A DNA stretch of 64,000 nucleotides, from the NCBI RefSeq assembly GCF_013401555.1, contig NZ_CP058552.1:4526001-4590000 (forward strand). The letters are read 5' to 3'. Source of the DNA: Paenibacillus sp. E222. Lineage in GTDB: Bacteria > Bacillota > Bacilli > Paenibacillales > Paenibacillaceae. Positions 13,716 through 63,538 of this stretch are shown here, piece by piece (within the stretch, counting starts at the first letter, position 1; every line of letters starts with the position of its first letter). Below the pieces are notes generated by a model. The model saw only the letters and a program-made list of their open reading frames with translations. It did not search any database and was not told where the DNA came from. The translations under genes and the position numbers were made by a program.

Positions 13716-13741
13716 ACATCACGTTTGAATAAATAGAATAT

Positions 13742-13826: not shown

Positions 13827-13851
13827 CGCCAAAAACAGAGGAGGAATCAGC

Positions 13852-15774: not shown

Positions 15775-15799
15775 ATGTTTTATCACATTTATCATATGA

Positions 15800-17320
<1,521 letters not shown>

Positions 17321-37309: not shown

Positions 37310-37334
37310 GCTGGAGAAAAACAGAGCAATAGAG

Positions 37335-37374
37335 AAAAGGCCTTGCTGGAGTAAGATCCGGCAAGGCCTTTTGA
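37335..37374. terminator. Terminator between the binding protein and the YesN gene
   Basis: AAAAGGCCTTGC pairs with GCAAGGCCTTTT around a 14-base loop; it can serve both converging genes. Confidence 0.82.
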
Positions 37375-37466
37375 TGTGTTAATCTAATCTTTTACGAGAA
37401 TTGACGAAATTTATTCGTGATGCTTAAATCAGGCAGGCAGCTAAGTAGGGTTTCGAAAACATCATA

Positions 37467-39107: not shown

Positions 39108-39116
39108 GTACTTCAC

Positions 39117-40826: not shown

Positions 40827-40866
40827 CGCTCAACCTCCTTAACTCATTAAAATATTGTTATCGTTG

Positions 40867-40909
40867 TTGCAATATTAGGATATAGATCGCAAATGGGCGT
40901 TGCTATAAT
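40867..40909 (+). promoter_or_regulatory. Promoter region of locus A permeases with shared 15-mer
   Basis: TTGCAATATTAGGAT at 40867-40881 followed by the extended -10 TGCTATAAT at 40901-40909. The 15-mer is the partner of the one at 35535. It sits in the gap between the divergent kinase and permease genes. Confidence 0.6.
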
Positions 40910-40971
40910 TTTAATATACAAGTTCACGCGCACTTGTAAAATACAAAATTGATAACATGGGGGATGTTGGG

Positions 40972-41922: not shown

Positions 41923-41937
41923 AGAGGAGAAAAGGGC

Positions 41938-42816
41938 TTGTATTACAAAACAAAAGGCTATCGAGTATTCAGCATATTTAATTATATCTTTCTCGGCGTA
42001 TTATCGTTGCTGTGCATATTGCCCATTATTCATATTTTGGCCGTCTCGTTCAGCAGCATGGCGCCAGCCTCATCCAATCTCGTCAGCTTCTGGCCGATTG
42101 GATTCACCACCGACGCTTATGTGAAGACATTTGGCAATTCCAATTTTATTAACTCCTTGCTGGTCTCGGTGAAACGAACGGTGATTGCGACCATCATTGG
42201 CATGGTTATTATGCTGCTTACGGCATTTCCGCTCTCGAAGGAAGATATCAGCTTCAAGGGCCGTTCGATCTACACATGGTTTTTCGTTTTTACCATTTTG
42301 TTCAGTGGGGGCCTGATCCCCAGTTACATTCTGATTCAGAAGCTGGGACTTATGGATACGATCTGGGCACTGATTCTGCCAGGAGCACTGTCCGTATGGA
42401 ATGTTATTCTCATGATGAATTTCTTCCGCGGTCTGCCCAAGGAACTGGAGGAAGCAGCCTATCTAGATGGGGCGGGTCATATCAAGACTCTGGCGCTGGT
42501 CTACGTGCCGCTGTCTCTTCCGGCCATTGCTACGCTGTCCCTTTTCACTATGGTAGGTCAGTGGAATTCCTGGTTTGACGGTATGATCTATATGTCGGAC
42601 GTGAAAAATTATCCACTGGCTTCCTTACTGCAGACGATTATCGTGCAGCAGGATCTTAGTAAAATCAACGTAGATCCGTCCATGCTGGAGAACGTCTCCC
42701 AGCGTACGGTTCGTGCAGCGCAAATCTTTATAGGGGCTTTGCCTATTTTGCTGGTGTATCCATTTTTACAACGCTTTTTCGTTAAAGGCATCGTTATCGG
42801 GGCAGTGAAAGAATAG
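41938..42816 (+). CDS. CUT1 ABC transporter permease, LplC/YtcP type (locus A)
   Basis: 292 residues from TTG 41938 (GAGAGGAG about 9 bases upstream). Six membrane helices, LCILPIIHILAVSFSS in the first, FSGGLIPSYILIQKLGLMDT, EAA loop LEEAAYLDGAGHIKTLALVYVPLSLP and the typical end FVKGIVIGAVKE. Second half of the oligosaccharide channel. It is followed after 41 bases by the SLH-GH16 gene in the same direction, so transport and depolymerisation are probably co-expressed. Confidence 0.93.
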   Translation: MYYKTKGYRVFSIFNYIFLGVLSLLCILPIIHILAVSFSSMAPASSNLVSFWPIGFTTDAYVKTFGNSNFINSLLVSVKRTVIATIIGMVIMLLTAFPLSKEDISFKGRSIYTWFFVFTILFSGGLIPSYILIQKLGLMDTIWALILPGALSVWNVILMMNFFRGLPKELEEAAYLDGAGHIKTLALVYVPLSLPAIATLSLFTMVGQWNSWFDGMIYMSDVKNYPLASLLQTIIVQQDLSKINVDPSMLENVSQRTVRAAQIFIGALPILLVYPFLQRFFVKGIVIGAVKE

Positions 42817-42857
42817 CATGGCCGTGCAAGTAACAACACATAAGGGGAGGAATACGG

Positions 42858-47633: not shown

Positions 47634-47694
47634 TAAAATCTTATAAGAAATTCTTGAAATTTCAGAAATTTATCCGTTAGGCGGGTGCTAATAT
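47634..47694 (+). promoter_or_regulatory. Locus B promoter 1: 9-bp-repeat activator element plus extended -10
   Basis: TAAAATC, then three abutting 9-mers AGAAATTCT, TGAAATTTC, AGAAATTTA (47646-47672), then extended -10 TGCTAATAT (TGC 47686-47688, TAATAT 47689-47694). No -35 box; the repeats occupy that place, as expected for an AraC-type activator. The same arrangement is found at 58295-58356. Confidence 0.75.
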
Positions 47695-47723: not shown

Positions 47724-48671
47724 ATGCAAGTGAAATTGGCAGCGGACGCCATTCCTCTCTCCAAAAAGCGGAAGTCATGGATAAGGACGATCCAAAAATA
47801 TAAAGTGATGTATGCTCTCTTATTACCAGCATTAATTTACTTTGCCGTATTCAAATACATCCCTATGGCGGGAATATTGATTGCTTTTAAAAACTACAAC
47901 CTGGCTTTGGGAGTATGGGATAGCCCATGGGTGGGATTCAAAAATTTTACGGATTTTATGAACGGCGTTTATTTCTGGGACATCATGAAAAATACGATTG
48001 TTATATCGCTGTATAAGCTATTGTTCGGTTTCTCCGCTCCCATCGTACTTGCTTTATTGCTCAATGAAGTTCATACCCAATGGTTTAAGAAAATCGTACA
48101 AACCATTACTTATTTACCCCACTTTTTGTCTTGGGTCATTGTATATGGATTGATGGTAGCATTATTAGCCCCAGGCGATGGCCTTTTTAATATGATTTTG
48201 AAGGAAAGTGGTTTTCAGCCCATTTCATTTCTAACGGAGCCTGCTTGGGGAAGACTGCTGGTCATCACATCTGAAATATGGAAGGACATTGGATGGGGAG
48301 CGATACTGTACCTCGCCGCATTAGCAGGTATTGATCCAAGCTTATATGAAGCGGCTCGAATGGATGGTGCTTCCAAATGGAGACAGCTCTGGCATATCAC
48401 TTTACCCGGCATTCGAGGAGTCATTATTCTGATGCTGATCCTTAAATTAAGCCATATTCTGGATGCTGGCTTTGACCAAATATTCATGTTTGCCAACACC
48501 TTTAACCAGGAGAAGATCGACATTATCGACACATGGGTATACCGTGAGGGGTTGGAGCGTCTTAAGATTGGCTTGGCTACTGCTGTAGGATTGTTTAAAG
48601 CTGTCATTGGATTTGCTTTAGTGTTGGCGGCCAATAAGCTCGCCAAAAAATTCGATGGGCAAATTTGGTGA
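47724..48671 (+). CDS. CUT1 ABC transporter permease, LplB type (locus B)
   Basis: 315 residues from ATG 47724 (GAGGTGATG upstream). Six membrane helices, KYIPMAGILIAFKNYNLALG, YLPHFLSWVIVYGLM, EAA loop YEAARMDGASKWRQLWHITLPGIRG. Paralogous to the locus A permease at 40972. First gene of a three-gene transport operon; the next gene begins 13 bases after the stop. Confidence 0.93.
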   Translation: MQVKLAADAIPLSKKRKSWIRTIQKYKVMYALLLPALIYFAVFKYIPMAGILIAFKNYNLALGVWDSPWVGFKNFTDFMNGVYFWDIMKNTIVISLYKLLFGFSAPIVLALLLNEVHTQWFKKIVQTITYLPHFLSWVIVYGLMVALLAPGDGLFNMILKESGFQPISFLTEPAWGRLLVITSEIWKDIGWGAILYLAALAGIDPSLYEAARMDGASKWRQLWHITLPGIRGVIILMLILKLSHILDAGFDQIFMFANTFNQEKIDIIDTWVYREGLERLKIGLATAVGLFKAVIGFALVLAANKLAKKFDGQIW

Positions 48672-48684
48672 GGTGGTTTTTAAT

Positions 48685-49554
48685 ATGATCAATTTGACAA
48701 TCGGGGAAAAAGTCTGGCAATCCGTCGTTTATGTTATTCTTATTTTTCTATCCCTACTTTGCTTACTGCCCTTTCTATATGTAATTGCTGTCTCAGTGAC
48801 GCCAGAATCGGAAGTATTAAGGAGAGGGATTGTGATTATACCAGAATCTTTTACCTTTCTGGCTTATAAAGAAGTCTTCATCTCTCATGGGATCTGGCAG
48901 GCGTATAAAATTACGTTGTTTCGAACAATTGTAGGCACTGCGTTAAATGTGTTTTTTACGGTCTTAGCAGCTTATCCGTTATCCAAAAAATATTTGCCGG
49001 GACGCAGTCCGTTTTTACTATTCATTGTGTTTACCATGATGTTTAGTGGGGGGTTAATTCCGACTTATCTACTAATTCGCTCTCTCGGGTTGCTAAACAG
49101 TCCGTGGGTATTGATTATTCCAAATCTCATTAGTGCATTTAATCTGGTGATCATTAAAGGCTTTTTTGAGCAATTGCCTGGTGAAATCGAGGAATCAGCG
49201 AGGGTTGACGGTGCAAGTGAACTTCAATCGTTATGGCGGATCATTTTACCTCTGTCTTTGCCCGTCATTTCCACCATTTCTTTATTTTACGCAGTGGGGC
49301 ATTGGAACAGTTATTTTGATGCTATTGTTTATATCAATGATTCCAACCTCATGCCGCTTCAAGTCGTCTTGCGCAACATCCTGCTTAACGTTGCAACACA
49401 AAGCGCTGAGTCGCTCGCCAATTCCGGAGCTGTAAGTACGTTCGCTGTACAGATGGCTACCGTTGTTGTGACTACGATTCCGATTTTAATCGTTTACCCA
49501 TTTTTACAAAAGCATTTTACCAAAGGTGTGCTCTTGGGATCCGTTAAAGGTTAA
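48685..49554 (+). CDS. CUT1 ABC transporter permease, LplC type (locus B)
   Basis: 289 residues from ATG 48685, with GAGGTGG 9-15 bases before it; a longer frame from 48655 overlaps the upstream gene and has no ribosome site. LCLLPFLYVIAVSVTPESEV, FSGGLIPTYLLIRSLGLLNS, EAA loop IEESARVDGASELQSLWRIILPLSLP and end FTKGVLLGSVKG are all standard for the family. It is 65 bases before the binding lipoprotein. Confidence 0.93.
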   Translation: MINLTIGEKVWQSVVYVILIFLSLLCLLPFLYVIAVSVTPESEVLRRGIVIIPESFTFLAYKEVFISHGIWQAYKITLFRTIVGTALNVFFTVLAAYPLSKKYLPGRSPFLLFIVFTMMFSGGLIPTYLLIRSLGLLNSPWVLIIPNLISAFNLVIIKGFFEQLPGEIEESARVDGASELQSLWRIILPLSLPVISTISLFYAVGHWNSYFDAIVYINDSNLMPLQVVLRNILLNVATQSAESLANSGAVSTFAVQMATVVVTTIPILIVYPFLQKHFTKGVLLGSVKG

Positions 49555-49619
49555 AAGGTGTTCCAACCTAACTTATTACGGTGAAACCGTGATAATATAC
49601 AAGCAAAGGAGAGGTCAAT

Positions 49620-51206
49620 ATGCAGCGTAAGAAGATTTCATTTGCTATTCTGTCGGCAATCTTAGGATTGGGTACGCTACTGTCAGGATGTGGGGGAAAT
49701 GAAGAAGTTACATCGACAGCTTCGGGTAATTCGCAAGGGCAATCTGGCCAGTTTGCAACCAAAATGAAAATCTCAATGTTTAACCAAGGCACTTTCAATG
49801 CTGCTGCTCCGGTACCTCCACGTGATGAAGATGTTCAACGTCAAATGTTGGAAAAAGAGATGAACATCGACTTGGATATGATGATTCCTCAAGCTGGGCA
49901 AGCAACAACCAAACTGAATACACTCATTGCAGGCGGAGATATTCCAGATTTGATCTTCTTGAAGAGTCGGGCTGATCTTGCGCAATATTACGACCAAGGC
50001 GTTCTTGCGGATTTGACACCGTATCTGGATCAATTCCCTGAATTAAAGAAACGGTTTGGCAACGACTCCTGGGAAGCAATGTCCTATCAAGGAAAAACGA
50101 TTGGAGTTCCAGGCTATGATAATGTAAACGGTATCAGTCGAAGCTTCTTTATCCGCAATGATTGGCTGAAAAAGCTGAATATGGAGGTACCAACGACACC
50201 GGATGAGTTGTTCGAAGTTATGAAAGCCTTTACAGAGAAAGATCCGGACGGGAATGGTAAAAACGATACGTACGGATTCATCGGCGGTATGAATAAAGAA
50301 GGTAATCTGCAAACCTACGGCTTCGATAGCTTGATGTGGATGTTTGGTGTCAATCCTCCTTCGGCCGTTGAGATAAAAGATAATGAACCGATATTCCTGT
50401 TTATTGATCCAAAAATGAAAGAGGCGCTTGCTTACATTAACAAAATGATGGCAGCCAAAGTGGTAGACCCAGACTGGGTGACGATGAATTCGCCTGATCT
50501 GTTGGATCAAAAGATGTTTAAGGGTAAAGTTGGCTTCATGATCAGAGATGCCCGCAGGCTGGAGCCGGATTATCAGCAGAAAATGAAAGAAATTAGTGGC
50601 GAGGTGCCGGAATGGATTGTTATTCCTCCGATGAAAGGTCCTTACGGTGATCAAATTGTAGAGAGAAAATCGTTCCAAGGCAATTCATGGGCCATTTCCG
50701 CGAAAGCGGATAAGGACAAAATCATTCGGATCTTGTCCATGCTGAATTATCTCTTTACGGACGAAGAAGCTTATCCGAACTTTGCATACGGAATTAAAGG
50801 GATTCATTGGGACGTGGTGGACGGCAAGATCAAAAATAAAACCTCCGAGTTATCGAAGGAAATGAAAGAGAAGTACCTGTGGGTCGATCATTATAGAATG
50901 CCGCGCCGTGGTGATGATGCGGAGTACTTCAGCTTCCAGAATCCGAAGACGGCGGAAGCTTTCAAGGATAATCAGCAATATGTGGGGCCAACGCTGCCCG
51001 GAAATTTATTGACCCCTGACCCCAGCGATACCTTGGATGCTGACCGCACACGTTTCATTAATGAAAGTTTAGTTAAATTTATGACGGGCAAAGAGCCTCT
51101 TTCCAACTGGGACAATTTCCTCCAAACGTTGGATACCAAGTTTGACATGCAGAAATATAAGGAAACAGCAATCCAGCAATTTAAAGAAGCCGACCTTATC
51201 AAGTAA
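49620..51206 (+). CDS. ABC transporter sugar-binding lipoprotein (locus B)
   Basis: 528 residues; AAAGGAGAGG upstream. Signal peptide with lipobox LSGC (GTLLSGCGGNEE). LipO-type binding protein: FTEKDPDGNGKNDTYGFIGG and the C-terminal NWDNFLQTLDTKFDMQKY. It delivers a glycan fragment to the two preceding permeases. Last gene of its transcript, as a stem-loop follows. No ATPase gene is present, so a shared ATPase elsewhere is implied. Confidence 0.91.
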   Translation: MQRKKISFAILSAILGLGTLLSGCGGNEEVTSTASGNSQGQSGQFATKMKISMFNQGTFNAAAPVPPRDEDVQRQMLEKEMNIDLDMMIPQAGQATTKLNTLIAGGDIPDLIFLKSRADLAQYYDQGVLADLTPYLDQFPELKKRFGNDSWEAMSYQGKTIGVPGYDNVNGISRSFFIRNDWLKKLNMEVPTTPDELFEVMKAFTEKDPDGNGKNDTYGFIGGMNKEGNLQTYGFDSLMWMFGVNPPSAVEIKDNEPIFLFIDPKMKEALAYINKMMAAKVVDPDWVTMNSPDLLDQKMFKGKVGFMIRDARRLEPDYQQKMKEISGEVPEWIVIPPMKGPYGDQIVERKSFQGNSWAISAKADKDKIIRILSMLNYLFTDEEAYPNFAYGIKGIHWDVVDGKIKNKTSELSKEMKEKYLWVDHYRMPRRGDDAEYFSFQNPKTAEAFKDNQQYVGPTLPGNLLTPDPSDTLDADRTRFINESLVKFMTGKEPLSNWDNFLQTLDTKFDMQKYKETAIQQFKEADLIK

Positions 51207-51218
51207 AATAAATAAACG

Positions 51219-51254
51219 AAGAGAGTGGCTATTCGTAGCCCCTCTCTTTATTAG
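51219..51254 (+). terminator. Terminator of the locus B transport operon
   Basis: AGAGAGTGGCTA and TAGCCCCTCTCT around a TTCG tetraloop, followed by TTTATT. It may be partial, letting some transcription reach the kinase gene. Confidence 0.82.
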
Positions 51255-51300
51255 CATATGCTATTCTTAGTTTAAAACGGAACTAAAAGGAAGATGATCG

Positions 51301-53040
51301 ATGCGAAGAAGAATCAGCTTGCCTTTAAAATTATTTTTTATCGTGTTTGCCTTTGTATTAGGGTGCATCATCTTGATAAGCCAATTGTCTTATCGCTATG
51401 TCCAAAAGGAAATAAGAACCAATGACATTTTTTACACCAATCAAATCCTTGACAAGGTAGACCAGTACTTCACTGTTAATTTTTCCTCCTTCCAAACGAT
51501 GCTCTTCTCAGTCGAAACATCAGTGAAAGCCAATATTGACAATACGGAAGTGATTAAAAAGCAATTAAGAGAACTGTATGAACTCAATAGTAATTACGTC
51601 AGTAATATTTATTTGATCAAAAGCGATTTATCCATTCTAGGCGGAAGTACAGCTACTCGAATATTCGATGAACCTTTAACTGAGAGAGAACCTTTGTTTG
51701 ATGCGGCTGATAAGAACAGAAGGACTACCTTTATTAGTGAACCATACAAATCGAAGTATTCTGGCTGGACCGTTACGATGGTTCGATATCTGAACGGTGC
51801 TCCGTTTCCAATGGCCATTGCGGTTGACTTGGATCTAAATGCCATTGAGGAAACCTTGTTCAAGATTAATAAACAAGAACAAATGAATCTGGCTCTGATC
51901 ACCGCGACAGGTAAAATCATTGCCGGATTTTCTGAAAATAAAGGACTACTGAATATTCAAGATCATACGTTTTCGATCGGAGAAACGTCAGCGGAACAAA
52001 TTCTTGATACGACAGAAACAAGTCTTCAACTGCATACCAAGGATGGCATTCCGGTCTCCCTTCTGAAAAAACCGACGGAGAAATTCAACTGGACCATAAT
52101 CTCGATCAATGATGAATCACGCTTGAAAGCAGCTTTGTCCAGATTGGAAACCTATTATATTGAGCTTCTAGCTGCAGGTCTTCTCTTAAGTTTGTTCATT
52201 TCTTTTTTGGTTGCCAAATATATAAGAAAACCACTTTATACGCTCAAAACAAAAATGAAGCAGGTGGAACAAGGCATCCTCACAACGACAATAACAATTA
52301 ATCGAAACGATGAGTTTGGCGATCTTTCACGAGCATTCGATCGTATGCTGCAACAAATTGTGGAACTGATTCGGGGGGCTGAGCTTCATAATGAACTTGA
52401 GCGGAAGCTGGAAATCCAGGTGTTACAGTCTCAAATTAACCCTCATTTTCTGTATAACACACTTGGTTCGATCAGCAATGTCATACGTCTCGGACAAATA
52501 GAGAAAGTAGATGTGGTGATCGGGTCGCTCATTTCATTATTGGAATACGGGATAGACGATGCTTCAGAGAAGGTTTCCCTACGCCAGGAATTACGCAATG
52601 TAGCGGACTATATCGAGATCCAGAACATTCGGTATAACCGAAACTTCCACTTGATTGAAAATATCGAAGCAGGGTTAATGGATTTCCCTGTTTTTCGAAT
52701 GCTGCTGCAGCCTCTTGTGGAGAATAGTATCTTCCATGGTTATAACGGAGGGGGAATTGAGGGGCCTATTACGATTCATGCGTACAGGGAGGACGGCATC
52801 GTCATCATCGAAGTTGTTGATCAAGGTGAGGGAATTCCAGCTGATAAAATAAAGCATATTTTAATCTCTGAACCGAGTGAAGAGGAAGTAAAAAGAAAAC
52901 GAATCGGGCTGAACAATATTCATGGCCGAATAAGACTTCACTACGGCGATCAATTCGGACTGCAAATCATTAGCATACCTAAGGAAATAACCCGTGTACG
53001 CGCTGTATTCCCGGCAGAATTGCAAAAAGGAGATGCATAA
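51301..53040 (+). CDS. YesM-type sensor histidine kinase (locus B)
   Basis: 579 residues. Membrane helix 12-32, extracellular Cache-like domain about 35-275, helix about 283-305 (LLAAGLLLSLFISFLVAKYI), HAMP 305-360, His_kinase with phospho-His in SQINPHFLYNTLG and HATPase_c (LLQPLVENSIFHGY; VVDQGEGIP; IGLNNIHGRIRLHYG). AAAGGAAG precedes the start. Its stop overlaps the response-regulator start by 1 base. It is predicted to sense a locus B sugar outside the cell. Confidence 0.93.
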   Translation: MRRRISLPLKLFFIVFAFVLGCIILISQLSYRYVQKEIRTNDIFYTNQILDKVDQYFTVNFSSFQTMLFSVETSVKANIDNTEVIKKQLRELYELNSNYVSNIYLIKSDLSILGGSTATRIFDEPLTEREPLFDAADKNRRTTFISEPYKSKYSGWTVTMVRYLNGAPFPMAIAVDLDLNAIEETLFKINKQEQMNLALITATGKIIAGFSENKGLLNIQDHTFSIGETSAEQILDTTETSLQLHTKDGIPVSLLKKPTEKFNWTIISINDESRLKAALSRLETYYIELLAAGLLLSLFISFLVAKYIRKPLYTLKTKMKQVEQGILTTTITINRNDEFGDLSRAFDRMLQQIVELIRGAELHNELERKLEIQVLQSQINPHFLYNTLGSISNVIRLGQIEKVDVVIGSLISLLEYGIDDASEKVSLRQELRNVADYIEIQNIRYNRNFHLIENIEAGLMDFPVFRMLLQPLVENSIFHGYNGGGIEGPITIHAYREDGIVIIEVVDQGEGIPADKIKHILISEPSEEEVKRKRIGLNNIHGRIRLHYGDQFGLQIISIPKEITRVRAVFPAELQKGDA

Positions 53041-54662
53041 TGATGAGAGACTATACCTGCTTCATTGTTGACGATGAAGACCTGATCATTCAACGATTGG
53101 AATTGTTTTTTAATGAACTCTCTCATAGGGATAAGCGATTTGTTCTAGTGGGCAAAGCGAATAATGGGCTGAATGGGGTCGAGGAGATCATAAAACTGAA
53201 GCCGGACATCGTCATATCCGATATCGTTATGCCGCGAATGGACGGAATCTCCATGATTGAGCAGCTCAAGAGGGAGCTCCCCCATACGCAATACATACTT
53301 TTGACCGCCTATTCATCCTTTGAATACGCCCAGCGAGCGATTCAAGCCAACGTATTGGAGTACATTGTAAAGGTTCCCTTGCGGGAAGCGGATTTGAATC
53401 GAGCTTTGGATAAGGCAGCCGGAATTTTAAATGAGTTTAAGAAAAAAGAAGCGGAATTTCAATCGTTAAATGTATCCGTCCTTGAAAATAAATATAGAGT
53501 GCGCAAGCAATTTTTTAACGAACTGATCAGAGGCGAAATTCCTTCTCATCGGGCATCGGATTTTGCTAATCGCATGCAGTTTCATTTCTTTCAAGCCAAC
53601 TATTGCTGCTTCATCGTTGAAATGAATACGTATGAAAGTTTTCGAAACGAATACGCTGCCTCAGATCAAAACATCTTGAAATATGCGATTACGAATATCA
53701 TCGAAGAAACGGTGATGAATGGTGGCAGTGGGGTAGCTGCGGATCTGTCCGATAATCGTTTTATTGGCTTTCTATCCTGGGAAAATAACCGCAGTGATAT
53801 GGAAACGGAATATGCTTGCCTATCCTTGGGAGGGCAGATCGTATCTCATTTGCATCAATATTTGAATCAAAGGGTATCTGTCGCTTTTGGTGGTCCACAC
53901 CGAGGCTGGGAATCGATCAAACAGGCGTACACGGAAGCTAAAAATGTGAGTGAGGATTTCTATTATCATACCGAAAAAGTAGTCAAAACACCGATGCATC
54001 GGTTCCAATACCATAATGACAAAAAAGCAGACTTTCAGCAGAAACTGGCTGATTTTCTTATCCGGCTGAAACGAAAGATTTCCAAGGAAGAGCTGGACAA
54101 TGCACTTGCCGAGCTGTTGCACTTTGTTTCGGACCATAAAATCCACAAGTCCATCATGGCGCCCATGATTAGAGACTTGTACAGAGAAATTACCGTAAAG
54201 TTTAAATTGGGGAACAAGCTGACTACGGAAGCAGCTGAATTCCCTATGGAATATATGGCATTTCAAGAACAACTCGCTTATATTGGCGACTTCACATTTG
54301 AATACGTGCACTCGGGCCAACGATTACATCGTGCAGAAATCATGAGTGCTATGCATTTTATAGAGAAAAACTTGAAACAACGCTTAACGTTGGAGGCAAT
54401 TGCGGAGGAAGTGAATCTAGCGCCATCGTATTTTAGCAGCTTATTCAAAAAAACAATGAACGAAGGCGTGATCAGCTACATCAACCGTAAAAAAATCCAT
54501 CTCGCTCTCGAGTTGTTAAACGTCCGGGATTATTCTTTATTGGAATTGTGCGAGGAAGTAGGTATCGTCAATGAAGGTTATTTCTGCAAACTGTTTAAAG
54601 AATATACGGGTGATACACCTAAGCAATATCGGATAAAAATGACACGGTACGAGTCCAAATAA
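53040..54662 (+). CDS. YesN-type AraC-family response regulator (locus B)
   Basis: 540 residues; ATG 53040 overlaps the kinase stop (TAATG), with AAAAGGAG upstream. Receiver 1-125 with FIVDDED and phospho-Asp61 (VISDIVMPRMDG). The conserved Lys-Pro near residue 111 reads KVPL, so the proline of the KP pair is displaced by one. Two AraC HTH motifs close the protein (LEAIAEEVNLAPSYFSSLFKKTM; LLELCEEVGIVNEGYFCKLFKEY). It is the probable activator acting on the repeat elements at 47646 and 58307. Confidence 0.92.
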   Translation: MMRDYTCFIVDDEDLIIQRLELFFNELSHRDKRFVLVGKANNGLNGVEEIIKLKPDIVISDIVMPRMDGISMIEQLKRELPHTQYILLTAYSSFEYAQRAIQANVLEYIVKVPLREADLNRALDKAAGILNEFKKKEAEFQSLNVSVLENKYRVRKQFFNELIRGEIPSHRASDFANRMQFHFFQANYCCFIVEMNTYESFRNEYAASDQNILKYAITNIIEETVMNGGSGVAADLSDNRFIGFLSWENNRSDMETEYACLSLGGQIVSHLHQYLNQRVSVAFGGPHRGWESIKQAYTEAKNVSEDFYYHTEKVVKTPMHRFQYHNDKKADFQQKLADFLIRLKRKISKEELDNALAELLHFVSDHKIHKSIMAPMIRDLYREITVKFKLGNKLTTEAAEFPMEYMAFQEQLAYIGDFTFEYVHSGQRLHRAEIMSAMHFIEKNLKQRLTLEAIAEEVNLAPSYFSSLFKKTMNEGVISYINRKKIHLALELLNVRDYSLLELCEEVGIVNEGYFCKLFKEYTGDTPKQYRIKMTRYESK

Positions 54663-54761
54663 GGATGCAAAAAATGTATGATTTTTTCGCGAAATCCTGT
54701 AAAAAAAAAGGCGCCAAAACCATTACCATGATAGGAGCATCTAATCATGGAGGTTATCAAA

Positions 54762-56978
54762 ATGGAGCTTATGAAAGCAGATGTAACCGTCGTAGGTGGA
54801 GGTATTGCAGGGATATGCGCTGCCATTGCAGCTGCACGCCAAGGTCTGCAGGTTTCACTTATTAATGATCGGCCGGTGCTTGGGGGAAATGCGAGCAGCG
54901 AGGTCAGAGTTCATATCAACGGGTCGGCATATCTCGGAAATAGTCCATCCTATTATGCCCGCGAGGGCGGGTTGGTAGAAGAACTCAAGCTGAAGATCTT
55001 TCATTATAATCCGTTATACAACAAGAAGCTTATGCTTTCGCTTTCGGATACGGTCTTGCTCGACATGGTTTATGATGAGCCTAACATTTCTCTGTTTCTG
55101 AATACATGTGTACATGAAACGGGCATCGAGAACGGCAGAATCAAGTGGGTGGAGGGCCTTCAATTAGCTTCCGAAAGAAAATTTCGTTTTGAAAGCCCAA
55201 CCTATATCGATTGCTCTGGTGATGGAATTGTTGGATACCAAGCAGGTGCTGACTTCCGATGGGGAAGAGAGGCGAAGCATGAATACAAGGAGGAGCTTGC
55301 TCCAGAAGTGGCGGATCATTACACGATGGGGGATACGATTCTGTTTCAAGCCCGTGACGTAAACTATTCCGTTCCTTACAAAAGGCCTGGCTTTGCGTAT
55401 GATATCACGAAGCTGGAGTTTTTCGAGAGAATCAAAAAAGGAATAAACCATCGGTCTTTTCCAAGGAAAATCAATGGACTTGGCGGATTGTGGTGGCTGG
55501 AATACGGCGGACATATGGATATTATCAAGAATAATGAAGACATCGCATTGGAACTGCGGAAATTGGTGTATGGAATCTGGGATTATATCAAAAATAGCGG
55601 TGAGTTTGATGATGTAGACAATCTCATCTTGGATTATGTATGCCCGATTCCGGGAAAGCGGGAGTCGAGACGTTTTATCGGGGAACACATGCTGTCTCAG
55701 AACGATCTTACACAAAAGACTCATTTCGAAGATGCTGTATCCGTCGGAGGCTGGTATATGGATCTGCATGCGAATAAAGGCATCTACGATGAGGGGCCGG
55801 CTACAGCGTGGAATTTCGTGCCGGGATTGTATAATATCCCTTTCCGCAGCTTATTTTCACGCAATATTCCCAATCTCATGTTCGCTGGCCGCAATATAAG
55901 CGCTACCCATGTAGCTTTTGGGTCTACAAGGGTGATGGCGACCTGTGGTTGTATGGGGCAGGCGGTAGGAACAGCTGCTGCGTTATGCGTAAAATATGAT
56001 ACAGACCCCGCGGACATCGTCAAAGCGCATATGGGTGAGCTTCAGACGCAGCTGCTTCGAGACGGGCAAACGATTGTAGGGCTTCAAGAGCCGTTGGACC
56101 CTTATTTCGCTGACGGATTAACGATTCGTGCCTCGTCTCAGCGAAGCTATGAACATCTTCATCCTACCGAAGAGATCTCCTTGGACAAAGCGTTATGTTT
56201 GGTCTTGCCGATCCAGACATCCGTGGCTGAAAGTGTGCAGATCAAAATTAAAAATAGATCCGAGCATTCGGAAACGTTGCAAGTGAAGCTGTTTGGCGGG
56301 GAACGGAAGGAAAACTATATTCCAGCCAGCGAGCTGAAAGGCTACAACTTGATGATTTCAGCGGGGCACGATGACTGGATTACACTGGATTTGGGCTGTC
56401 AGAAGCCTGCTGACGATAAAATCTACATCGTATTGGAAGGTACAGCGAGCCTTGACGTATATGGTAATGAAGAAAAAATGACAGGAGCGGTGAGCTTCTA
56501 TTATAGACCGGAAGAGCCATCCAGACTGAAGAAATTCAACAGAAGCATTTGCTTCAAGGATCTGATGCCATCCCAGGATATGTATAATCCCGCGAATGTC
56601 GTCAACGGCTTCTCCAGACCTTATGGTCTGCCGAACGGCTGGATTTCTGAACGTTCGGAAGGACAGGAGTGGTTGGAATTTGGTTTTGCAAGCCCCAAGA
56701 ATCTGGATGAAATCCATCTTGTTTTCAATTCGCAGCTGAATTTGGAGCATTTCGACGATCCGATCGAGCCGTTGATTCAAGATTATGATGTGATCTTAAC
56801 CTTAGAAGACGGAACCGAGAGTGAAATGAATATCCGTGGTAATTATCTTTCGTTGAATAAACATCAGGTGCATGCAAAAGGTGTAACCCGAGTCCGATTT
56901 GATTTCTGTGCAACGTATGGTTCGCCTTATTATGAAGTGTTTGCTGTCAAATTTTTTGCTCCTAAAAACGCTAAGTGA
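54762..56978 (+). CDS. FAD-dependent oxidoreductase of the glycan locus
   Basis: 738 residues from ATG 54762, because GGAGG lies 8 bases upstream; an in-frame ATG at 54747 overlaps that site. N-terminal Rossmann fold VTVVGGGIAGICAAIAAARQG (GGGIAG) and the FAD_oxidored signature RPVLGGNASSEVRVHINGSA, then a mid-protein FAD block (NLMFAGRNISATHVAFGSTRVMATCGCMGQAVGTAAAL). Residues 1-460 are the enzyme; 480-738 look like one or two beta-sandwich modules with discoidin-like features (NGWISERSEGQEWLEFGFAS). No signal peptide, so cytoplasmic. It overlaps the glycan system by position: 99 bases after yesN and 17 before the SGNH gene. Substrate unknown, possibly a sugar or sugar acid. Confidence 0.82.
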   Translation: MELMKADVTVVGGGIAGICAAIAAARQGLQVSLINDRPVLGGNASSEVRVHINGSAYLGNSPSYYAREGGLVEELKLKIFHYNPLYNKKLMLSLSDTVLLDMVYDEPNISLFLNTCVHETGIENGRIKWVEGLQLASERKFRFESPTYIDCSGDGIVGYQAGADFRWGREAKHEYKEELAPEVADHYTMGDTILFQARDVNYSVPYKRPGFAYDITKLEFFERIKKGINHRSFPRKINGLGGLWWLEYGGHMDIIKNNEDIALELRKLVYGIWDYIKNSGEFDDVDNLILDYVCPIPGKRESRRFIGEHMLSQNDLTQKTHFEDAVSVGGWYMDLHANKGIYDEGPATAWNFVPGLYNIPFRSLFSRNIPNLMFAGRNISATHVAFGSTRVMATCGCMGQAVGTAAALCVKYDTDPADIVKAHMGELQTQLLRDGQTIVGLQEPLDPYFADGLTIRASSQRSYEHLHPTEEISLDKALCLVLPIQTSVAESVQIKIKNRSEHSETLQVKLFGGERKENYIPASELKGYNLMISAGHDDWITLDLGCQKPADDKIYIVLEGTASLDVYGNEEKMTGAVSFYYRPEEPSRLKKFNRSICFKDLMPSQDMYNPANVVNGFSRPYGLPNGWISERSEGQEWLEFGFASPKNLDEIHLVFNSQLNLEHFDDPIEPLIQDYDVILTLEDGTESEMNIRGNYLSLNKHQVHAKGVTRVRFDFCATYGSPYYEVFAVKFFAPKNAK

Positions 56979-56995
56979 GGGCGGGTGAAGTCACG

Positions 56996-58204
56996 ATGAA
57001 GGAATTTTTCCCTCGAAGAGGGCTGCCTAATGTCATTCAAAAGTTGGAAAATGGGGAGACAGTAACAATTGTCTATTTTGGCGGCAGTAATACGCGTTCT
57101 GAAGGATACAGGGTCATGACGGCGGATTGGCTGCGAGGGCAATATCCCCATGCAGATATCCGCTCTGTGAACGCAGGCATTGATGGGACAGGATCGGACC
57201 TCGGCTGCGCCCGTTTGGAGACAGATGTACTGCGTCATCAGCCTGATCTCGTGTTTGTTGAATTTGTTGGAAACGATGGGGGAGTTCCCGAATCCAAAGC
57301 ACGGATCGAAGGTATTGTCCGACAGATTCGCAAGCACAGCCGTTTTACGGATGTCCTGTTTGTGTATACGGTTAAGGAACGGGATTTGACCTCATTTCAA
57401 TCCGGCCAATACCAGAAGGGCGCTCGTATGCAAGAGGAAGTCGCCGACTATTACGGCATTCCTTCGATTCATCTGGGCGTAGCAGTCAGTCAATTGGTTT
57501 TGGATGGAAAGCTCATTTTCACCTTAAGAGCAGACGTATCTATTCCCGAAGCCGTTATTTTTACGCATGATTCGATCCATCCAACGATTCCCGAAGGACA
57601 TCAGATTTACACAGATACAATCACCCGGTCGTTTGAGAAAATCAGAGAGCTTCGAGATCACGTAGGAAAAGTCGAACATCACTTGCCGGAGGAGCCTTTG
57701 GTCCCGGCCAACCCTTGGGAGTATGCAACCATGCTGCCACTGGATCGTCTTACTCATTTTTCCGCGGGGTGGTCTTACATGACCCCTGATGATTTTGCTT
57801 TAGTGCGCGAGTATGATTGGTTGTTCCCCGGTCTATGGCGAGCAGTCGATCCCGGAGAGACGATCACAGTGGAGTTTGAGGGAACCCACATCGGATTATT
57901 CGATATTGGGGGGCCGGATTCCGGCAGATTGAAGGTGACGGTGGATGGAGGGGAACCCTTTCTTATCGATCGATTCACATCATATAACGATCATAATCGA
58001 AATCAATATGTTTTCTTACCGGAGCTACCAAATGGGAAACATAAAGTTCGCTTCGAAATTGATCACGAGAAGACTGACAAAGCGGCCGTATTTGAGGCTA
58101 GCGGCAATGAACGAAGTATGGAGCACGTGCGGCAGCATCCAGCTTGGTATGATCAAACGGTCATTCAGCTTGGTAAGTTACTATTGGTGCAGCCGCCATT
58201 ATAA
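56996..58204 (+). CDS. SGNH/GDSL-type hydrolase with C-terminal beta domain
   Basis: 402 residues from ATG 56996 (GGGTGA upstream). SGNH blocks: FGGSNT with Ser31 in place of GDS, GND with Asn93 (VEFVGNDGG), and DSIHPT with Asp192 and His195, so the triad and oxyanion residues look intact. Residues about 240-400 form a beta-sandwich (TVEFEGTHIGLFDIGGPDSG; VTVDGGEPFLID). No signal peptide was seen. Relatives deacetylate or deacylate sugars, so removal of ester groups from an imported glycan is the likely role; inference. It is 17 bases behind the oxidoreductase, in the same operon. Confidence 0.83.
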   Translation: MKEFFPRRGLPNVIQKLENGETVTIVYFGGSNTRSEGYRVMTADWLRGQYPHADIRSVNAGIDGTGSDLGCARLETDVLRHQPDLVFVEFVGNDGGVPESKARIEGIVRQIRKHSRFTDVLFVYTVKERDLTSFQSGQYQKGARMQEEVADYYGIPSIHLGVAVSQLVLDGKLIFTLRADVSIPEAVIFTHDSIHPTIPEGHQIYTDTITRSFEKIRELRDHVGKVEHHLPEEPLVPANPWEYATMLPLDRLTHFSAGWSYMTPDDFALVREYDWLFPGLWRAVDPGETITVEFEGTHIGLFDIGGPDSGRLKVTVDGGEPFLIDRFTSYNDHNRNQYVFLPELPNGKHKVRFEIDHEKTDKAAVFEASGNERSMEHVRQHPAWYDQTVIQLGKLLLVQPPL

Positions 58205-58294
58205 TTGATTAGTCCTTTTGGAACACTTGGAAGACCTATATTCTATCTGACTGCAACTGAGCAATCAATTAGGATGTAGGTTTCTTTTTTTACT

Positions 58295-58356
58295 TAAAAT
58301 CATATAAGAAATTCTTAAAATGAAAGAAATTTCACCGTGATGTAACATGCTAAGAT
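58295..58356 (+). promoter_or_regulatory. Locus B promoter 2: 9-bp-repeat activator element plus extended -10
   Basis: TTAAAATC, AGAAATTCT at 58307-58315, a diverged middle unit TAAAATGAA, AGAAATTTC at 58325-58333, then TGCTAAGAT (TGC 58348-58350, TAAGAT 58351-58356). The third repeat to TGC distance is 23 bases against 22 in promoter 1. It drives the giant golvesin-module gene. Confidence 0.75.
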
Positions 58357-58474
58357 AAAAACGACAGAGCGGGATTAGCCAGAAGACTAGGTTAATTGCT
58401 TTTTTACGATCATTCGAGCAAGAGGCAATGCATTTATGGAAGCGTTATCATTAATAGGAGAGGCTGTGAGTTGT

Positions 58475-61400
58475 ATGGTCAAAAGGAAGCTTTTTTTCTT
58501 CATCGTTTTCATGTTGACGATCGTAGTTCCTTCCAGCCTGATCGGAATAAGGGCCGCTTATGCGGAGACCTTACCTTATCAGACCATTATCATCGATGAC
58601 GGGAGCATTAAGATTAATGATGTTGTGACACCTGATGCGGGTAACGAGAACAATGGATATTCGGCTCCAAATTGGACCACAAGCACAGGGGTGAAGGGGT
58701 ATGATCTTTCAAGCACCCAATATACGAGTACAGCAGGCAGAACGATCACATGGAATCCACGCTTGGAAGCAGGAACCGCGAAAATATCTTTCTATAAGCT
58801 GGATTGGGCGGATAAGGCTGATAGCAATGTGAAAATCGAAATTGTTCATAATGGAACGACGGATGTAGTCTTTATGGATCTAAGACCCTCATCTGGCGCT
58901 CCAGCAGGTTGGGTTGATTTGGGAGAGTACTATTTTTCCGGAGTTGGTGAAGAATTCGTTAAATTGACTCGGTCTACCGGCACCACGAACACGATCCTTA
59001 CGCGTGCGGATGCGGTCAAGTTCGAAGGGAATATAAGGCAGAAAGAACCACATAAGACGATCATCATTGATGATGGAAGCCTCACAATTGATAATGTCGT
59101 CACTGTTGATTCAGGCAATGTCAATAACGGGTTCTCCGCTCCTTATTGGACCACAAGCGCAGGAGTGAAGGGATACAATAATTCCAGTTCCAAATACACA
59201 GACGCTGTAGGTAGAACGATCACATGGAATCCGCGCTTGGAAGCAGGGACGGCGAGAATATCGTTCTATAAGCTGGATTGGGCGGATAAAGCAGACAGTA
59301 ATGTGAAAATTGAGATTGTTCATAACGGGATAACGGATGTCAAGTTTATGGATCTAAGACCTTCGTCAGGTCCATCGGTTGGATGGGTGGATCTCGGGGA
59401 GTATGAGTTTAGTGGTAATGATAGCGAATTTGTCAGGCTGACTCGAACGCAACCTACGACGGGGACAATTATTACACGGGCCGATGCAGTCAAGTTCGAA
59501 GGAAATATCCGACAGCAAGCACCACCGTTGCCCCCGCTGCGGAGCCGCACATTAGCGAATCTCAGTTACACGGAAAAAGGCAGCATCGAAAATGCTAACT
59601 ATAAGGCGACCTTCTATGAGGCAGCATGGGATGGGGGCAAATCCATCGTTCGTGACATGTTCTACAAGAACACGGACACGGGAAACTGGATGCCGATTAA
59701 TAATGTATCGGAAAGACTTGAGGAGCAATGGGTTTTATTGGATGGGAATGCGGGCAGCCGAACCAATTACTACGATACGATGAACAAACGCTGGATTACA
59801 TTCGACGAGGTCCATTTTCCAGACAGCCACACGGCGGTATTAACCGATTCTACGCATGGCAGTGATTACGATTTTGAAGTGAACTGGTCCATGGCAGGGG
59901 ATAAACCAGATGTTTCCTTTGCTTTTACACCTCGCCGCGACGGCAATTATGTTATAGGATATCAGTCCTTCACAACAGAGGCAGTCTCGGGCATCAATGA
60001 AGTGTTAAATGGATTCAGGTCCCATGCCAAAATGGTAGGTACGGTGGAATCAACAAGCTTGAGAGAGCTGAGCGCTCCGATGAGCCTGGTTGAGAAAAAT
60101 GATGGTTCGGGAAATCCATTGACGTATGGTGTTTTTGTACCTTCGGCAGAGCTTCCGATTGAATTTGAACCGACGGGAGGCGTTACGAAACAACGGCTTG
60201 GCATGAGCCTGGTCAACAACGAAGGCAGCGTGCAGCCAATCCTGTATGCGCCTCAATTAGGGACTTATTCGCAAATGACCGCAGAAAGCACTTATCAATT
60301 TCATATGGGGCTAATCGCTCAAAAAAGCAATCTGTATGAGTCCTACGCGGATATTCTTCGCAATGAGTACGGTTATTCAGCATACCGGGAAAATGTGTCA
60401 GATCAGTCGCTCACTGACGCGATGTTCAATATGATCGATTTGCTTAAGATTGAGCCGCAAGGGGACGACTCTGTCAATTATGTCCCGTCACCCAGCGGGT
60501 GGTGGAGCCGTGCCAAGGGCTTTATTGATATCGAAAACGAGGATAGCGTCCGAACAAGCTCGAATGCGGTTCTTTTGGGGGCTTACTATTTGACTGGGGA
60601 TGACCAGCTATACGATACGAGAGCACTGCCGTCCGTCCAGTATGGCGTATCGCGAAACGGTATCGGTTGGTCGCCGACCCAGAAGAAAGTTTACGGTGTG
60701 CCTTCCTTATGGAAAATGGCTACTCTGCCGTTCGATGTTTCAAGCGTAGCCGCCGTCAATCAGATGATGGGCACTTCGGCAGGAATTGGGGCGCTGGCAC
60801 AGGAAGAGTACCTCATGCGTGATCCTGACCAGAAAGACCGGGGGCCTGTCATTCAACCCCTGATGATGTATCGTATGACAGGAGAGGCCCAGTATTTGCA
60901 GGCTGCCAAGGATGCAGCCGATAGTTATATCTTGCAATATATCGATACGCCTGCAACCGTGGATGTGAGTAAAAATGAGTTCATTTATTATTATAGCAAG
61001 CTGTGGATGGAGATCTTGGAGCTATATGAGGAAACTCAAGATCCCAAATATTTGAATGCCGCTTATAAGGAAGCCAAACGGTATGCAACCATGTTCGTTG
61101 CTCGTCCAGTTCCTGAAGGAAACGTTACGATTCCGCAGCCAGAGACGTATAATTACGCGGAGTCGTTCCATTGGCCGGAAAGTGGTAAATTTCAATATCC
61201 TAGGCTCAAGCTTCCAGAAGATATAGCTGGAGGCGTTCAAGCTGCGAGTTGGCTGGTTTCACCGAGCGGATTGACGTTTGAAGCAGGAAGTACAACCGGC
61301 TATTATCGGATGAATGCTCAGGAAGCTCCATTCATGCTGAGATTGTCGCTTTATACAGGGGATAAACTGCTGCAGGATATTGCTCATAATGCGGTTATTG

Positions 61401-63538
61401 GCCGATATTCCAGTTATCCAGGTTATTACTATAAGGGTTTCGCCGTTAGTCAACTTGAATCAGACTTTCCGCTGGAAGGCCCCAGCGGGGCTACATCCAT
61501 CTATTACCACCATATTCCGGGGCAGCTTGGGCAAACGATGGATTATTTGATCAGCGAACAATCATTAAAATCGAACGGGAGTATTACATTTCCTTCCGTA
61601 TTTGAAACGAATTTTTTATGGTTCAAATATCACCTCTATGGGAATAAACCAGGTCAATTTTATGGCAATTCCGACGTTTGGCTTTGGATGCCCAAGGGGA
61701 TTATTAAGACCAACCATCCTCAATTGAATTGGATAACGGGTGAGAGCGGTGATAAATTCTACATCGGGCTAAGCAATGCATCGTCAGAAGAAATTCAGAC
61801 TCCGATTGAATTGAATGAACAAATCATTGGATTCAACCCAACACAGGATTATACCGTAACGATCATCCGCGACAATGGTACACCAGAGCAAGCAGTTATG
61901 AGTGGCGGAATCATTCAAGCCACGGTTTCAGGCAAGGGCATCACCGCTATCATTGTAGAAGGACTTAACATTGATGTGCCGCTGCATCAGGTTAGAACGG
62001 CTGAACCATCGGATGCAAGCTATTTCTTTGATACCCACAGTCCAATTGATGCGGTTAAAGGCATGCTGATGGTTAAACCCGACGAAACGGTCTATGATGC
62101 ATATGTGCAGGCCAAAACGACGAAACCAGCGACAATCCATTATTCCTTGGATGGCGGGGCTACGTATACAACCGTCCCAGATACGATATACCCGATGGAA
62201 TGGTCGATACGGGTGAATGATTTATCCCAAACCTTCACGTATTACGTGGAATCAGAGGGGAAACAGACCCGCAAGCGGACACTTTATCTGCCTGATCAGG
62301 TTACGGAAACTCCAGTCCAACCCGATGGGCAGGAGAGTTCATCTATCATAGTGGATAATACGGAGGCGGAGACAGAAGGCGTCTGGATAAGGGATACGAC
62401 GGCTGACAACTATTACTATGATAACTATGTGTATGCCAAATCTACGGCTGGCACAGCGACAAGCAAAATGAGATGGCGGCCTGAGCTGCCGGAAAGTGTC
62501 ACTTACAGTGTGTATTACAAGATTCCGCAAATCACCGCTGCGAGTGAAAATTGGACAACGAATGCCTCATTTACCGTGTATTACAGCGGAGGCTCCGAGA
62601 CGGTTACTGTTGATGAGACAGCAGCGAATGGTACTTGGGTGCACCTAGGGGATTATCCTTTTGCTGCAGGCGATAGCGGGTACGTGGAACTAACCAACAA
62701 GGCCAACAAGTCTCGGGTCGTTGCCGATGCGATCATGTGGGTGGACGCGAACCAGATACCGCAATTGGAGTCTGCTGTGATCCTGTCTGATCGGAACGAG
62801 CTGCAGATGACTCAAACCGCACAGCTGAGCGTAACCGGCTATTTGGATAACGGTTTGATCGGTGATCTAACACAGGCCAATGTACAGTATTTCGTTGATC
62901 GTACGGATCTGGCCGAAGTGGATAGCAGTGGCTTGTTGACCCTTCTAAATCTCGATGGGGATACGAATCACATTGAGGTATGGGCCACAGTAACGATTGA
63001 TGGTGTGACCTTAACCACACCACCTTTGAACATCACGATTAAGGACCTAACGGTTATCGTGGACAGTACAAATACAACTGGGTTGTACACGACAGAAGGG
63101 TCTTGGAGTCAAAGCAATTTAGCCGGATACAAAATTGGGGTTAAATCCCGTTACTCAACAGTTGAAGGATCATCCGCAACTTGGAAAGGCCAGTTTCCAG
63201 AGGGGAAATATACGGTCTCGATCTACAAGCTCGTCCATACGACGGGTAACGATAATCATGTCAAAGTGGAAGTGAAGCATAAGACGGGTACCGAGGTCAC
63301 CTATATCGATGCAACGGTCGGCTCATCGGGTTGGGTTAATCTAGGAACGTTCGACTTTACGGGTGACGGCAGCGAGTATGTCCGGTTAACCAGGGTTACG
63401 CCTACAACGGTAGACCCGCCAACGCTTCCTGCAGATATGATCTATACGAGGGCTGATGCAGTTATGTTCGAACGGCATTCCGATGATTCGGAGCTGCTTG
63501 CAAATGAAGCTCAAGGTGAACCGACACTTTCTGAATAA
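58475..63538 (+). CDS. Giant secreted protein with four golvesin-like modules
   Basis: 1687 residues from ATG 58475 (AGGAGAGG upstream; in-frame GTG 58466 also possible). Signal peptide MVKRKLFFFIVFMLTIVVPS, cleavage near AYA. Golvesin/Xly-CBD-like modules lie at about 37-190, 195-350, 1289-1420 and 1525-1670; the first two are near copies. Typical strings are TITWNPRLEAGTAKISFYKL, WVDLGEYYFSG and TRADAVKFEGN. A BIG2-like Ig domain sits near 1430-1520. The core, about 355-1280, is unrecognised; it has helical stretches with many Tyr, Trp and Glu (YYYSKLWMEILELYEETQDP) that suggest an (alpha/alpha) toroid glycan lyase or hydrolase. No SLH or sortase anchor. Confidence 0.8.
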   Translation: MVKRKLFFFIVFMLTIVVPSSLIGIRAAYAETLPYQTIIIDDGSIKINDVVTPDAGNENNGYSAPNWTTSTGVKGYDLSSTQYTSTAGRTITWNPRLEAGTAKISFYKLDWADKADSNVKIEIVHNGTTDVVFMDLRPSSGAPAGWVDLGEYYFSGVGEEFVKLTRSTGTTNTILTRADAVKFEGNIRQKEPHKTIIIDDGSLTIDNVVTVDSGNVNNGFSAPYWTTSAGVKGYNNSSSKYTDAVGRTITWNPRLEAGTARISFYKLDWADKADSNVKIEIVHNGITDVKFMDLRPSSGPSVGWVDLGEYEFSGNDSEFVRLTRTQPTTGTIITRADAVKFEGNIRQQAPPLPPLRSRTLANLSYTEKGSIENANYKATFYEAAWDGGKSIVRDMFYKNTDTGNWMPINNVSERLEEQWVLLDGNAGSRTNYYDTMNKRWITFDEVHFPDSHTAVLTDSTHGSDYDFEVNWSMAGDKPDVSFAFTPRRDGNYVIGYQSFTTEAVSGINEVLNGFRSHAKMVGTVESTSLRELSAPMSLVEKNDGSGNPLTYGVFVPSAELPIEFEPTGGVTKQRLGMSLVNNEGSVQPILYAPQLGTYSQMTAESTYQFHMGLIAQKSNLYESYADILRNEYGYSAYRENVSDQSLTDAMFNMIDLLKIEPQGDDSVNYVPSPSGWWSRAKGFIDIENEDSVRTSSNAVLLGAYYLTGDDQLYDTRALPSVQYGVSRNGIGWSPTQKKVYGVPSLWKMATLPFDVSSVAAVNQMMGTSAGIGALAQEEYLMRDPDQKDRGPVIQPLMMYRMTGEAQYLQAAKDAADSYILQYIDTPATVDVSKNEFIYYYSKLWMEILELYEETQDPKYLNAAYKEAKRYATMFVARPVPEGNVTIPQPETYNYAESFHWPESGKFQYPRLKLPEDIAGGVQAASWLVSPSGLTFEAGSTTGYYRMNAQEAPFMLRLSLYTGDKLLQDIAHNAVIGRYSSYPGYYYKGFAVSQLESDFPLEGPSGATSIYYHHIPGQLGQTMDYLISEQSLKSNGSITFPSVFETNFLWFKYHLYGNKPGQFYGNSDVWLWMPKGIIKTNHPQLNWITGESGDKFYIGLSNASSEEIQTPIELNEQIIGFNPTQDYTVTIIRDNGTPEQAVMSGGIIQATVSGKGITAIIVEGLNIDVPLHQVRTAEPSDASYFFDTHSPIDAVKGMLMVKPDETVYDAYVQAKTTKPATIHYSLDGGATYTTVPDTIYPMEWSIRVNDLSQTFTYYVESEGKQTRKRTLYLPDQVTETPVQPDGQESSSIIVDNTEAETEGVWIRDTTADNYYYDNYVYAKSTAGTATSKMRWRPELPESVTYSVYYKIPQITAASENWTTNASFTVYYSGGSETVTVDETAANGTWVHLGDYPFAAGDSGYVELTNKANKSRVVADAIMWVDANQIPQLESAVILSDRNELQMTQTAQLSVTGYLDNGLIGDLTQANVQYFVDRTDLAEVDSSGLLTLLNLDGDTNHIEVWATVTIDGVTLTTPPLNITIKDLTVIVDSTNTTGLYTTEGSWSQSNLAGYKIGVKSRYSTVEGSSATWKGQFPEGKYTVSIYKLVHTTGNDNHVKVEVKHKTGTEVTYIDATVGSSGWVNLGTFDFTGDGSEYVRLTRVTPTTVDPPTLPADMIYTRADAVMFERHSDDSELLANEAQGEPTLSE
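58583..59520 (+). repeat. 474-bp direct tandem duplication encoding two golvesin modules
   Basis: Copies begin at 58583 and 59057, a period of 158 codons in frame. Long runs are nearly identical at the DNA level, for example AGAACGATCACATGGAATCC and CTATAAGCTGGATTGGGCGG in both. Differences are mostly third-position, as expected for a recent in-frame duplication kept by selection. Confidence 0.88.

Follow-up and report, generated by a model that had tools for sequence, protein, structure and literature searches.

Polysaccharide-utilisation loci (PULs) built around a CUT1-type importer and the YesM/YesN regulators are a known kind of locus in Gram-positive bacteria. Here we describe a locus of eight genes, all in one direction, at positions 47724-63538 of a 64,000-nucleotide stretch (the window) from the 7.5-Mb genome of Paenibacillus sp. 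E222 (contig NZ_CP058552.1, positions 4,526,001 to 4,590,000; G000:C1:4526001-4590000). A seven-gene cassette, running from the permeases to an SGNH hydrolase, is followed by the gene for a giant protein with golvesin modules. Synteny, co-occurrence and a shared operator give good support to the view that these genes make up a single regulated system, and we consider it fairly probable that they constitute a glycan-utilisation locus in which the giant protein serves as a secreted depolymerase, the SGNH hydrolase removes acyl groups and a flavin adenine dinucleotide (FAD)-dependent enzyme oxidises the sugar. The features of the locus are as follows.

47642..47671, + strand: operator copy 1 (TATAAGAAATTCTTNAAATNNNAGAAATTT), with an extended -10 like stretch after it at 47686-47694
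47724..48671, + strand: CUT1 ATP-binding cassette (ABC) permease A (permA), PF00528; start chosen by a ribosome-binding-like sequence
48655..49554, + strand: CUT1 ABC permease B (permB), PF00528
49620..51206, + strand: solute-binding lipoprotein (SBP), PF01547 (SBP_bac_1); nearest solved relatives AlgQ2 and AlgQ1
51301..53040, + strand: YesM-type sensor histidine kinase with His_kinase, HAMP and HATPase_c domains
53040..54662, + strand: YesN-type response regulator with Response_reg and HTH_AraC domains; presumed operator binder
54747..56978, + strand: FAD-dependent oxidoreductase, PF12831 (FAD_oxidored), 293 bits against a cut-off of 27; start codon uncertain
56975..58204, + strand: SGNH hydrolase, CE17-like, PF13472 (Lipase_GDSL_2), 6hfz at E 5e-17; start codon uncertain
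58303..58332, + strand: operator copy 2, with an extended -10 like stretch at 58348-58356
58475..63538, + strand: giant protein, 1687 residues, predicted secreted; Golvesin_C in four stretches, signal-like N-terminus by eye
59498..62305, + strand: core of the giant protein, 936 residues; predicted super-sandwich, alpha/alpha toroid and beta domains, with no Pfam family over cut-off

The coordinates and lengths of all eight genes given by an initial annotation of the window agree with the open reading frames, and its identification of the importer, YesM/YesN pair, FAD oxidoreductase and SGNH hydrolase was borne out by Pfam scores over cut-off. The locus has in common with Gram-positive PULs an importer, a binding lipoprotein, a sensor kinase, an AraC-type regulator, a large protein predicted to be secreted and a shared operator. 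In contrast to those systems, it has no classified depolymerase or cytoplasmic glycosidase among its eight proteins; no glycoside hydrolase (GH) or polysaccharide lyase (PL) model of Pfam or NCBIfam exceeded its cut-off in any of them, no recognised glycosidase was found in the cassette with Pfam, and the only cytoplasmic enzymes are the FAD oxidoreductase and the SGNH hydrolase. Rfam yielded nothing in the window at gathering scores. Among the titles and abstract openings listed, no publication about this eight-gene locus was found, and nothing was retrieved for PF12831 with polysaccharide, or for YesM/YesN or FAD oxidoreductase with Paenibacillus polysaccharide utilisation; PF12831 by itself brought up a Brucella flavoproteome, and the golvesin abstracts and titles concern mostly amoeba or vacuole work, with one item on bacterial lectins.

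Synteny and the shared operator

A scan for the core of the giant protein, in a collection holding one genome per species, returned 46 loci with a core relative. The order YesM-YesN-FAD-SGNH-giant is kept in 40 of these, and in 39 the binding protein precedes this run; in most, the fetched flank stops short of the permeases. In two further loci (L047 and L048) the permeases, binding protein, SGNH hydrolase and giant form one group, and a different contig carries YesM, YesN and the FAD enzyme. In the remaining four only the core is seen, at 61-74% identity; L062, which belongs to these four, breaks off at a contig end inside the giant, and in what is apparently the same genome the cassette and the start of a giant lie on another contig (L117, L157, G186). 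Where the respective gene is present, its median identity is 92% for the core, 93% for YesM, 91% for YesN, 90% for the FAD enzyme and 87% for the SGNH hydrolase. Ten stretches that reach further upstream (L124-L133), partly from genomes already represented, hold all seven cassette genes plus the giant; the binding protein lies in two frames in L125, the core of the giant is split over two overlapping frames in L124:11584-17041 (genome G109), and in L133:11505-16574 (G247) a stop ends the giant's frame at 1287 residues and detaches the C-terminal part. The initial annotation had proposed a synteny check in other Paenibacillus genomes and held that separation of the genes in all relatives would speak against a system; no such separation was seen, as the YesM, YesN, FAD, SGNH and giant genes are together in 40 of the 46 loci.

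Cores of 95-99% identity in named genomes all come from Paenibacillus, including P. taichungensis, P. pabuli and P. xylanexedens. Across the order, 80 of 392 genomes match the core family in some form, and their scores divide them into 63 of the window type (type A, above 1350 bits, including the split copy in G109) and 17 that are distant or fragmentary. FAD orthologues, defined by at least 70% identity (the next group reaches at most 45%), occur in 72 of the 392; orthologue and type-A core coincide in 57 genomes (p 3e-47 in Fisher's test, without correction for common ancestry). Among 398 genomes drawn from the phylum, seven matched, comprising full cores in the E222 genome and two relatives and four short, weak matches, and no core match was found in a plasmid collection. 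The core family is not confined to the order, since at least 32 relatives are among the protein matches listed, with names from Paenibacillus, Micromonospora, Ruania, Streptosporangiaceae and Thermomicrobiales. One genome (G193) carries an extra 443-residue lipoprotein-like gene and a diverged SGNH hydrolase (36%) in its cassette (L156:7552-12533), with the giant upstream of the permeases rather than downstream (L115).

The 30-bp element TATAAGAAATTCTTNAAATNNNAGAAATTT occurs once before the first permease gene and once before the giant's gene. With up to 3 mismatches allowed, the 7.5-Mb genome holds no third copy (the reversed-pattern control gave 0), and no such pair arose in 100 shuffles of the window; the shared promoter element noticed in the initial annotation is thus genuine and beyond chance. 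A shorter pattern found one extra off-locus genomic site at 3 mismatches. The consensus from 79 distinct extended sites is ATCTTATAAGAAATTCTTgAAATnnnAGAAATTT, with an extended -10 like TGCTATGATA further on; TGC starts 14 and 15 bp past the element in the two window copies. A slightly looser pattern, at up to 3 mismatches, was scanned over 45 chosen genomes, nearly all of which carry the system. It gave 79 matches, 76 of them at this system by position and 3 elsewhere (G166:C5, G011:4252443 and G317:2994305); one genome (G071) had no match, and the reversed-pattern control gave 3 over the same genomes.

When up to 5 mismatches are allowed, 41 of the 42 loci among the 46 that have cassette genes show the giant's operator copy, the exception being L058, in which the giant follows directly after the SGNH hydrolase. 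The operator was absent at seven distinct loci that have a core and no adjoining cassette (L063, L067, L072, L114, L118, L120 and L121); among the core-only loci of the 46, the upstream side is visible in the first three of these. Both copies are found in 9 of the 10 loci that show the whole cassette plus giant (L124-L133). All 15 cassette-only loci have the operator before permA, as a single copy in 13 and with a decayed second copy in the other two, and where the cassette is split the detached YesM-YesN-FAD piece carries an operator copy of its own (L154 and L155). From this distribution we infer that YesN binds the operator.

The giant protein and its core

The giant passed the Golvesin_C gathering score (198.8 bits, four stretches), and its modules, ordered partly by eye, are two N-terminal golvesin modules, the core, a golvesin module, a linker domain and a final golvesin module. 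The initial annotation had recognised no familiar family in the core, and indeed no curated cut-off of Pfam or NCBIfam was passed; the core lies outside the families of these libraries. Readings as GH127 (17.9 bits against a cut-off of 24.9, over about 65 residues; weak matches in 14 of 31 core-family members, the best being P0030 at 22.5 bits), as GH88 (11.5 bits against 26.6; weak matches in 2 of 31 members) and, for the toroid, as GH76 were dropped because none reached a family-level score.

The predicted model of the core (predicted local distance difference test, 87.6; predicted template-modelling score, 0.90) combines a super-sandwich with an alpha/alpha toroid and beta domains, an architecture of the kind seen in glycoside hydrolases and lyases, and carbohydrate-active or sugar-acting enzymes predominate among its fold matches; families missing from the fold lists are not thereby ruled out. 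GH94/GH65-type and PL26 enzymes likewise appear to combine these three parts, the toroid coming after the super-sandwich, and match about residues 22-755 of the modelled core, but at 6-10% identity, with a root-mean-square deviation of about 20 Å or more over the whole length and no sequence family signal. The structure prediction and fold search suggested in the initial annotation yielded a glycan-enzyme-like architecture and no single family. The giant has a golvesin-type C-terminal module in common with a Paenibacillus xanthan lyase (6f2p; E 1e-11, residues 1302-1436), and the sequence match between the two is limited to this module; we take the lyase to be a PL8 enzyme, with the toroid before the sandwich.

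In 52 aligned sequences, invariant acidic, aromatic and His/Tyr residues lie beside the long loops of the toroid. Together with the architecture of the model, these conserved polar residues are the basis on which the core, cast as the depolymerase in the initial annotation, is predicted to be catalytic. A somewhat unlikely alternative to hydrolysis is that the core is a polysaccharide lyase, in which Y640, Y643 and H672 with arginines would abstract the proton next to a uronate and release unsaturated oligosaccharides. However, two carboxylates (core numbering E346, in 51 of 52 sequences, and E595, in 52 of 52) are just as compatible with a hydrolase; Pfam found no unsaturated-uronyl hydrolase in the cassette, and most neighbours of relatives that were checked with Pfam belong to exo-glycosidase types.

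Cytoplasmic enzymes and clues to the substrate

No signal peptide was seen by eye in the SGNH hydrolase or the FAD enzyme. The best solved relative of the former is RiCE17 (6hfz/6hh9), a 2-O-acetyl mannan esterase of Roseburia intestinalis (6hfz, E 5e-17), with which it shares a Ser-Asp-His triad and an oxyanion Asn. S38, H202, D199 and N100 align to S41, H193, D190 and N110 of RiCE17, and are invariant in 29 of 29 sequences, that of the window included; PMC13276840 gives the triad as Ser41-His193-Asp190 with Asn110. As regards the C-terminal CBM35 clamp of CE17 esterases, the alignment stops at residue 308 and a CE2_N match (22 bits) is below its cut-off of 27.9. No mannanase was recognised beside the hydrolase.

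The family of the FAD enzyme is very large, with at least 8000 matches (8000 of 8000 candidates scored). The initial annotation gave the enzyme putative added beta-sandwiches; two homologues (P0074 and P0075) carry precomputed F5/8-type-C domains. In 7 of 12 stretches, homologues of 37-42% identity have both CUT1-type permeases and YesM/YesN as neighbours (L161, L162, L165, L166, L168, L169 and L170). By eye, a GH3-like gene lies near one homologue (L169) and heparinase-like genes near two others (L164 and L167). A second homologue in the E222 genome (40%; G000:C1:4498711-4500957, L161), about 25 kb before the window start, adjoins permeases and YesM/YesN of its own.

The acylated or uronate-containing substrate proposed in the initial annotation is weakly suggested by the mannan 2-O-acetyl esterase catalytic residues of the SGNH hydrolase and by the binding protein, whose nearest solved relatives, AlgQ2 and AlgQ1, are alginate binders. 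Further clues come from neighbours of cores outside the cassette. As the proteins submitted to Pfam (8 + 20) were picked by eye, with no background rate, the alpha-galactosidase-type neighbours are a lead only. Pfam identified GLAA-B domains, presumably of the GH110 type (L095 and L121), GH97 (L097, L098 and L118), raffinose-synthase or melibiase types (L067 and L096), GH4 (L095 and L076), rhamnosidases (L095 and L101), fucosidases (L072 and L112) and enolase-superfamily, DHDPS and SDR genes (L104 and L111). PF12831 proteins or FAD homologues are near a distant core in 5 of 22 loci (L095, L096, L107, L077/L078 and L099), and 10 of these 22 have CUT1-type permeases near the core; four of the 22 loci are on stretches of 6-11 kb. 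Within a cassette, one locus (L116) has a GH28 gene between the FAD and SGNH genes. Such neighbours offer hints of an alpha-galactosylated, possibly acidic glycan; overall, the glycan is probably acylated, perhaps acidic or alpha-galactosylated.

Proposed pathway and genomes without the giant

In the pathway we propose, YesM would detect an extracellular saccharide and phosphorylate YesN, which would bind the 30-bp operator and so activate two promoters, that of the seven-gene cassette and that of the giant. Once secreted, the giant would bind the polymer, presumably of plant or soil origin, through its golvesin modules and cut it with its alpha/alpha-toroid core; the resulting oligosaccharides would be taken up via the CUT1 importer, stripped of acyl groups by the intracellular SGNH hydrolase and subjected by the FAD enzyme to a first oxidative step.

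Several observations weigh against this pathway. The fold lists include non-enzymes and point to no single family, and a shared fold is no proof of function. Because it amounts to only about 65 bits, the relation to CE17 is, as judged from sequence, too distant for its substrate to be transferred. Six genomes with a diverged core (61-74%) have no FAD orthologue, and 15 of the 72 genomes with a FAD orthologue have no intact type-A core, which makes the giant dispensable.

In all fifteen giant-less genomes permA-permB-SBP-YesM-YesN-FAD-SGNH are in order (one YesM in two frames); the giant is linked to the cassette but separable from it. A relic of the giant's operator lies 92-98 bp past the SGNH stop in four of them, with 2 mismatches in L141, 6 in L147, 8 in L140 and, ungapped, 9 in L144, a shortened copy. 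Because this degraded operator remains after the SGNH gene, the giant has, most simply, been lost in these four; in L140 pieces of it persist, but approximately residues 460-1258, which make up most of the core, are gone. The best window at this place in the other eleven has 12-14 mismatches. Loss of the secreted enzyme with uptake retained would fit scavenging. By eye, no common replacement enzyme was seen in the fetched stretches. Large proteins downstream of two giant-less cassettes (2071 residues, L145:2-6214; 803 residues, L141:13318-15729) are possible replacements, and one cassette is directly followed by genes that by eye encode a GntR-like regulator, a dehydrogenase and an enolase-superfamily-like protein (L139:5374-8062), types that recur around distant cores.

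The giant-less genomes, the lack of a glycosidase in the cassette and the FAD homologues beside importers and regulators of the same kind (whose other neighbours, such as the GH3-like gene of L169, were classified by eye only) would also agree with a small plant or microbial glycoside as the substrate imported by the cassette, with the giant a separate add-on sharing the regulator. We regard this as doubtful, because the giant's operator is nearly a copy of the cassette's and its relic persists in the four genomes above, so that giant and cassette were most simply one unit in those ancestors. That the giant is a non-enzymatic glycan-binding surface or matrix protein with the toroid as a scaffold is very improbable, for although it has four golvesin stretches and no recognised catalytic family, invariant residues line the toroid's long loops and golvesin-less core relatives of about 940-1100 residues exist among the protein matches listed.

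The glycan-utilisation pathway can also be put more boldly, in a form that we hold to be unlikely as a whole: the giant would found a new carbohydrate-active enzyme family; the cassette, for which FAD-driven opening is proposed because no glycosidase was recognised in it, would open the deacylated oligosaccharide by oxidation, in a flavin-based parallel to the NAD-dependent oxidation-elimination routes; and the giant would be a shared good, repeatedly lost by lineages that retain import and oxidation and thereby become scavengers of what other cells produce.

Elsewhere in the window, a separate glycan locus (35624-47318) holds, as named by eye, a binding protein, YesN/YesM, two CUT1-type permeases and a 1486-residue S-layer-type protein with a GH16-like domain. 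This adjoining GH16 protein (42858-47318), with its own importer and regulators, was set apart from the system because no operator copy lies there and because its relatives are not adjacent to the cassette. Such relatives (66-74% identity) are present in 11 of 14 same-genus cassette genomes and adjacent in none of the 11: two genomes have theirs on a different contig, and in the other nine it is some 20 to 108 kb away from the FAD gene. Weak matches to it (28-35% over 158-186 residues) occur in L058, L114, L144, L163 and L164. As seen by eye, a 761-residue SecA-like ATPase (28387-30672) lies downstream of a 766-residue secreted protein with PKD-like repeats, and two similar beta-glucoside phosphotransferase system (PTS) clusters, each with an antiterminator, a PTS enzyme and a GH1-like gene, flank the region (12762-17320 of the window and L075:12839-17000).

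The locus is widespread, strictly conserved and experimentally tractable in Paenibacillus and relatives, a single group in which numerous bacteria of soil and plants carry it. Its operator is a ready reporter for a search for the inducing glycan, and by pairing genomes that have the giant with others that lack it, the loss of a presumably secreted, shared enzyme can be tested. The glycosidase-free cassette, finally, draws attention to a large, little studied family of FAD enzymes as possible sugar-opening enzymes.

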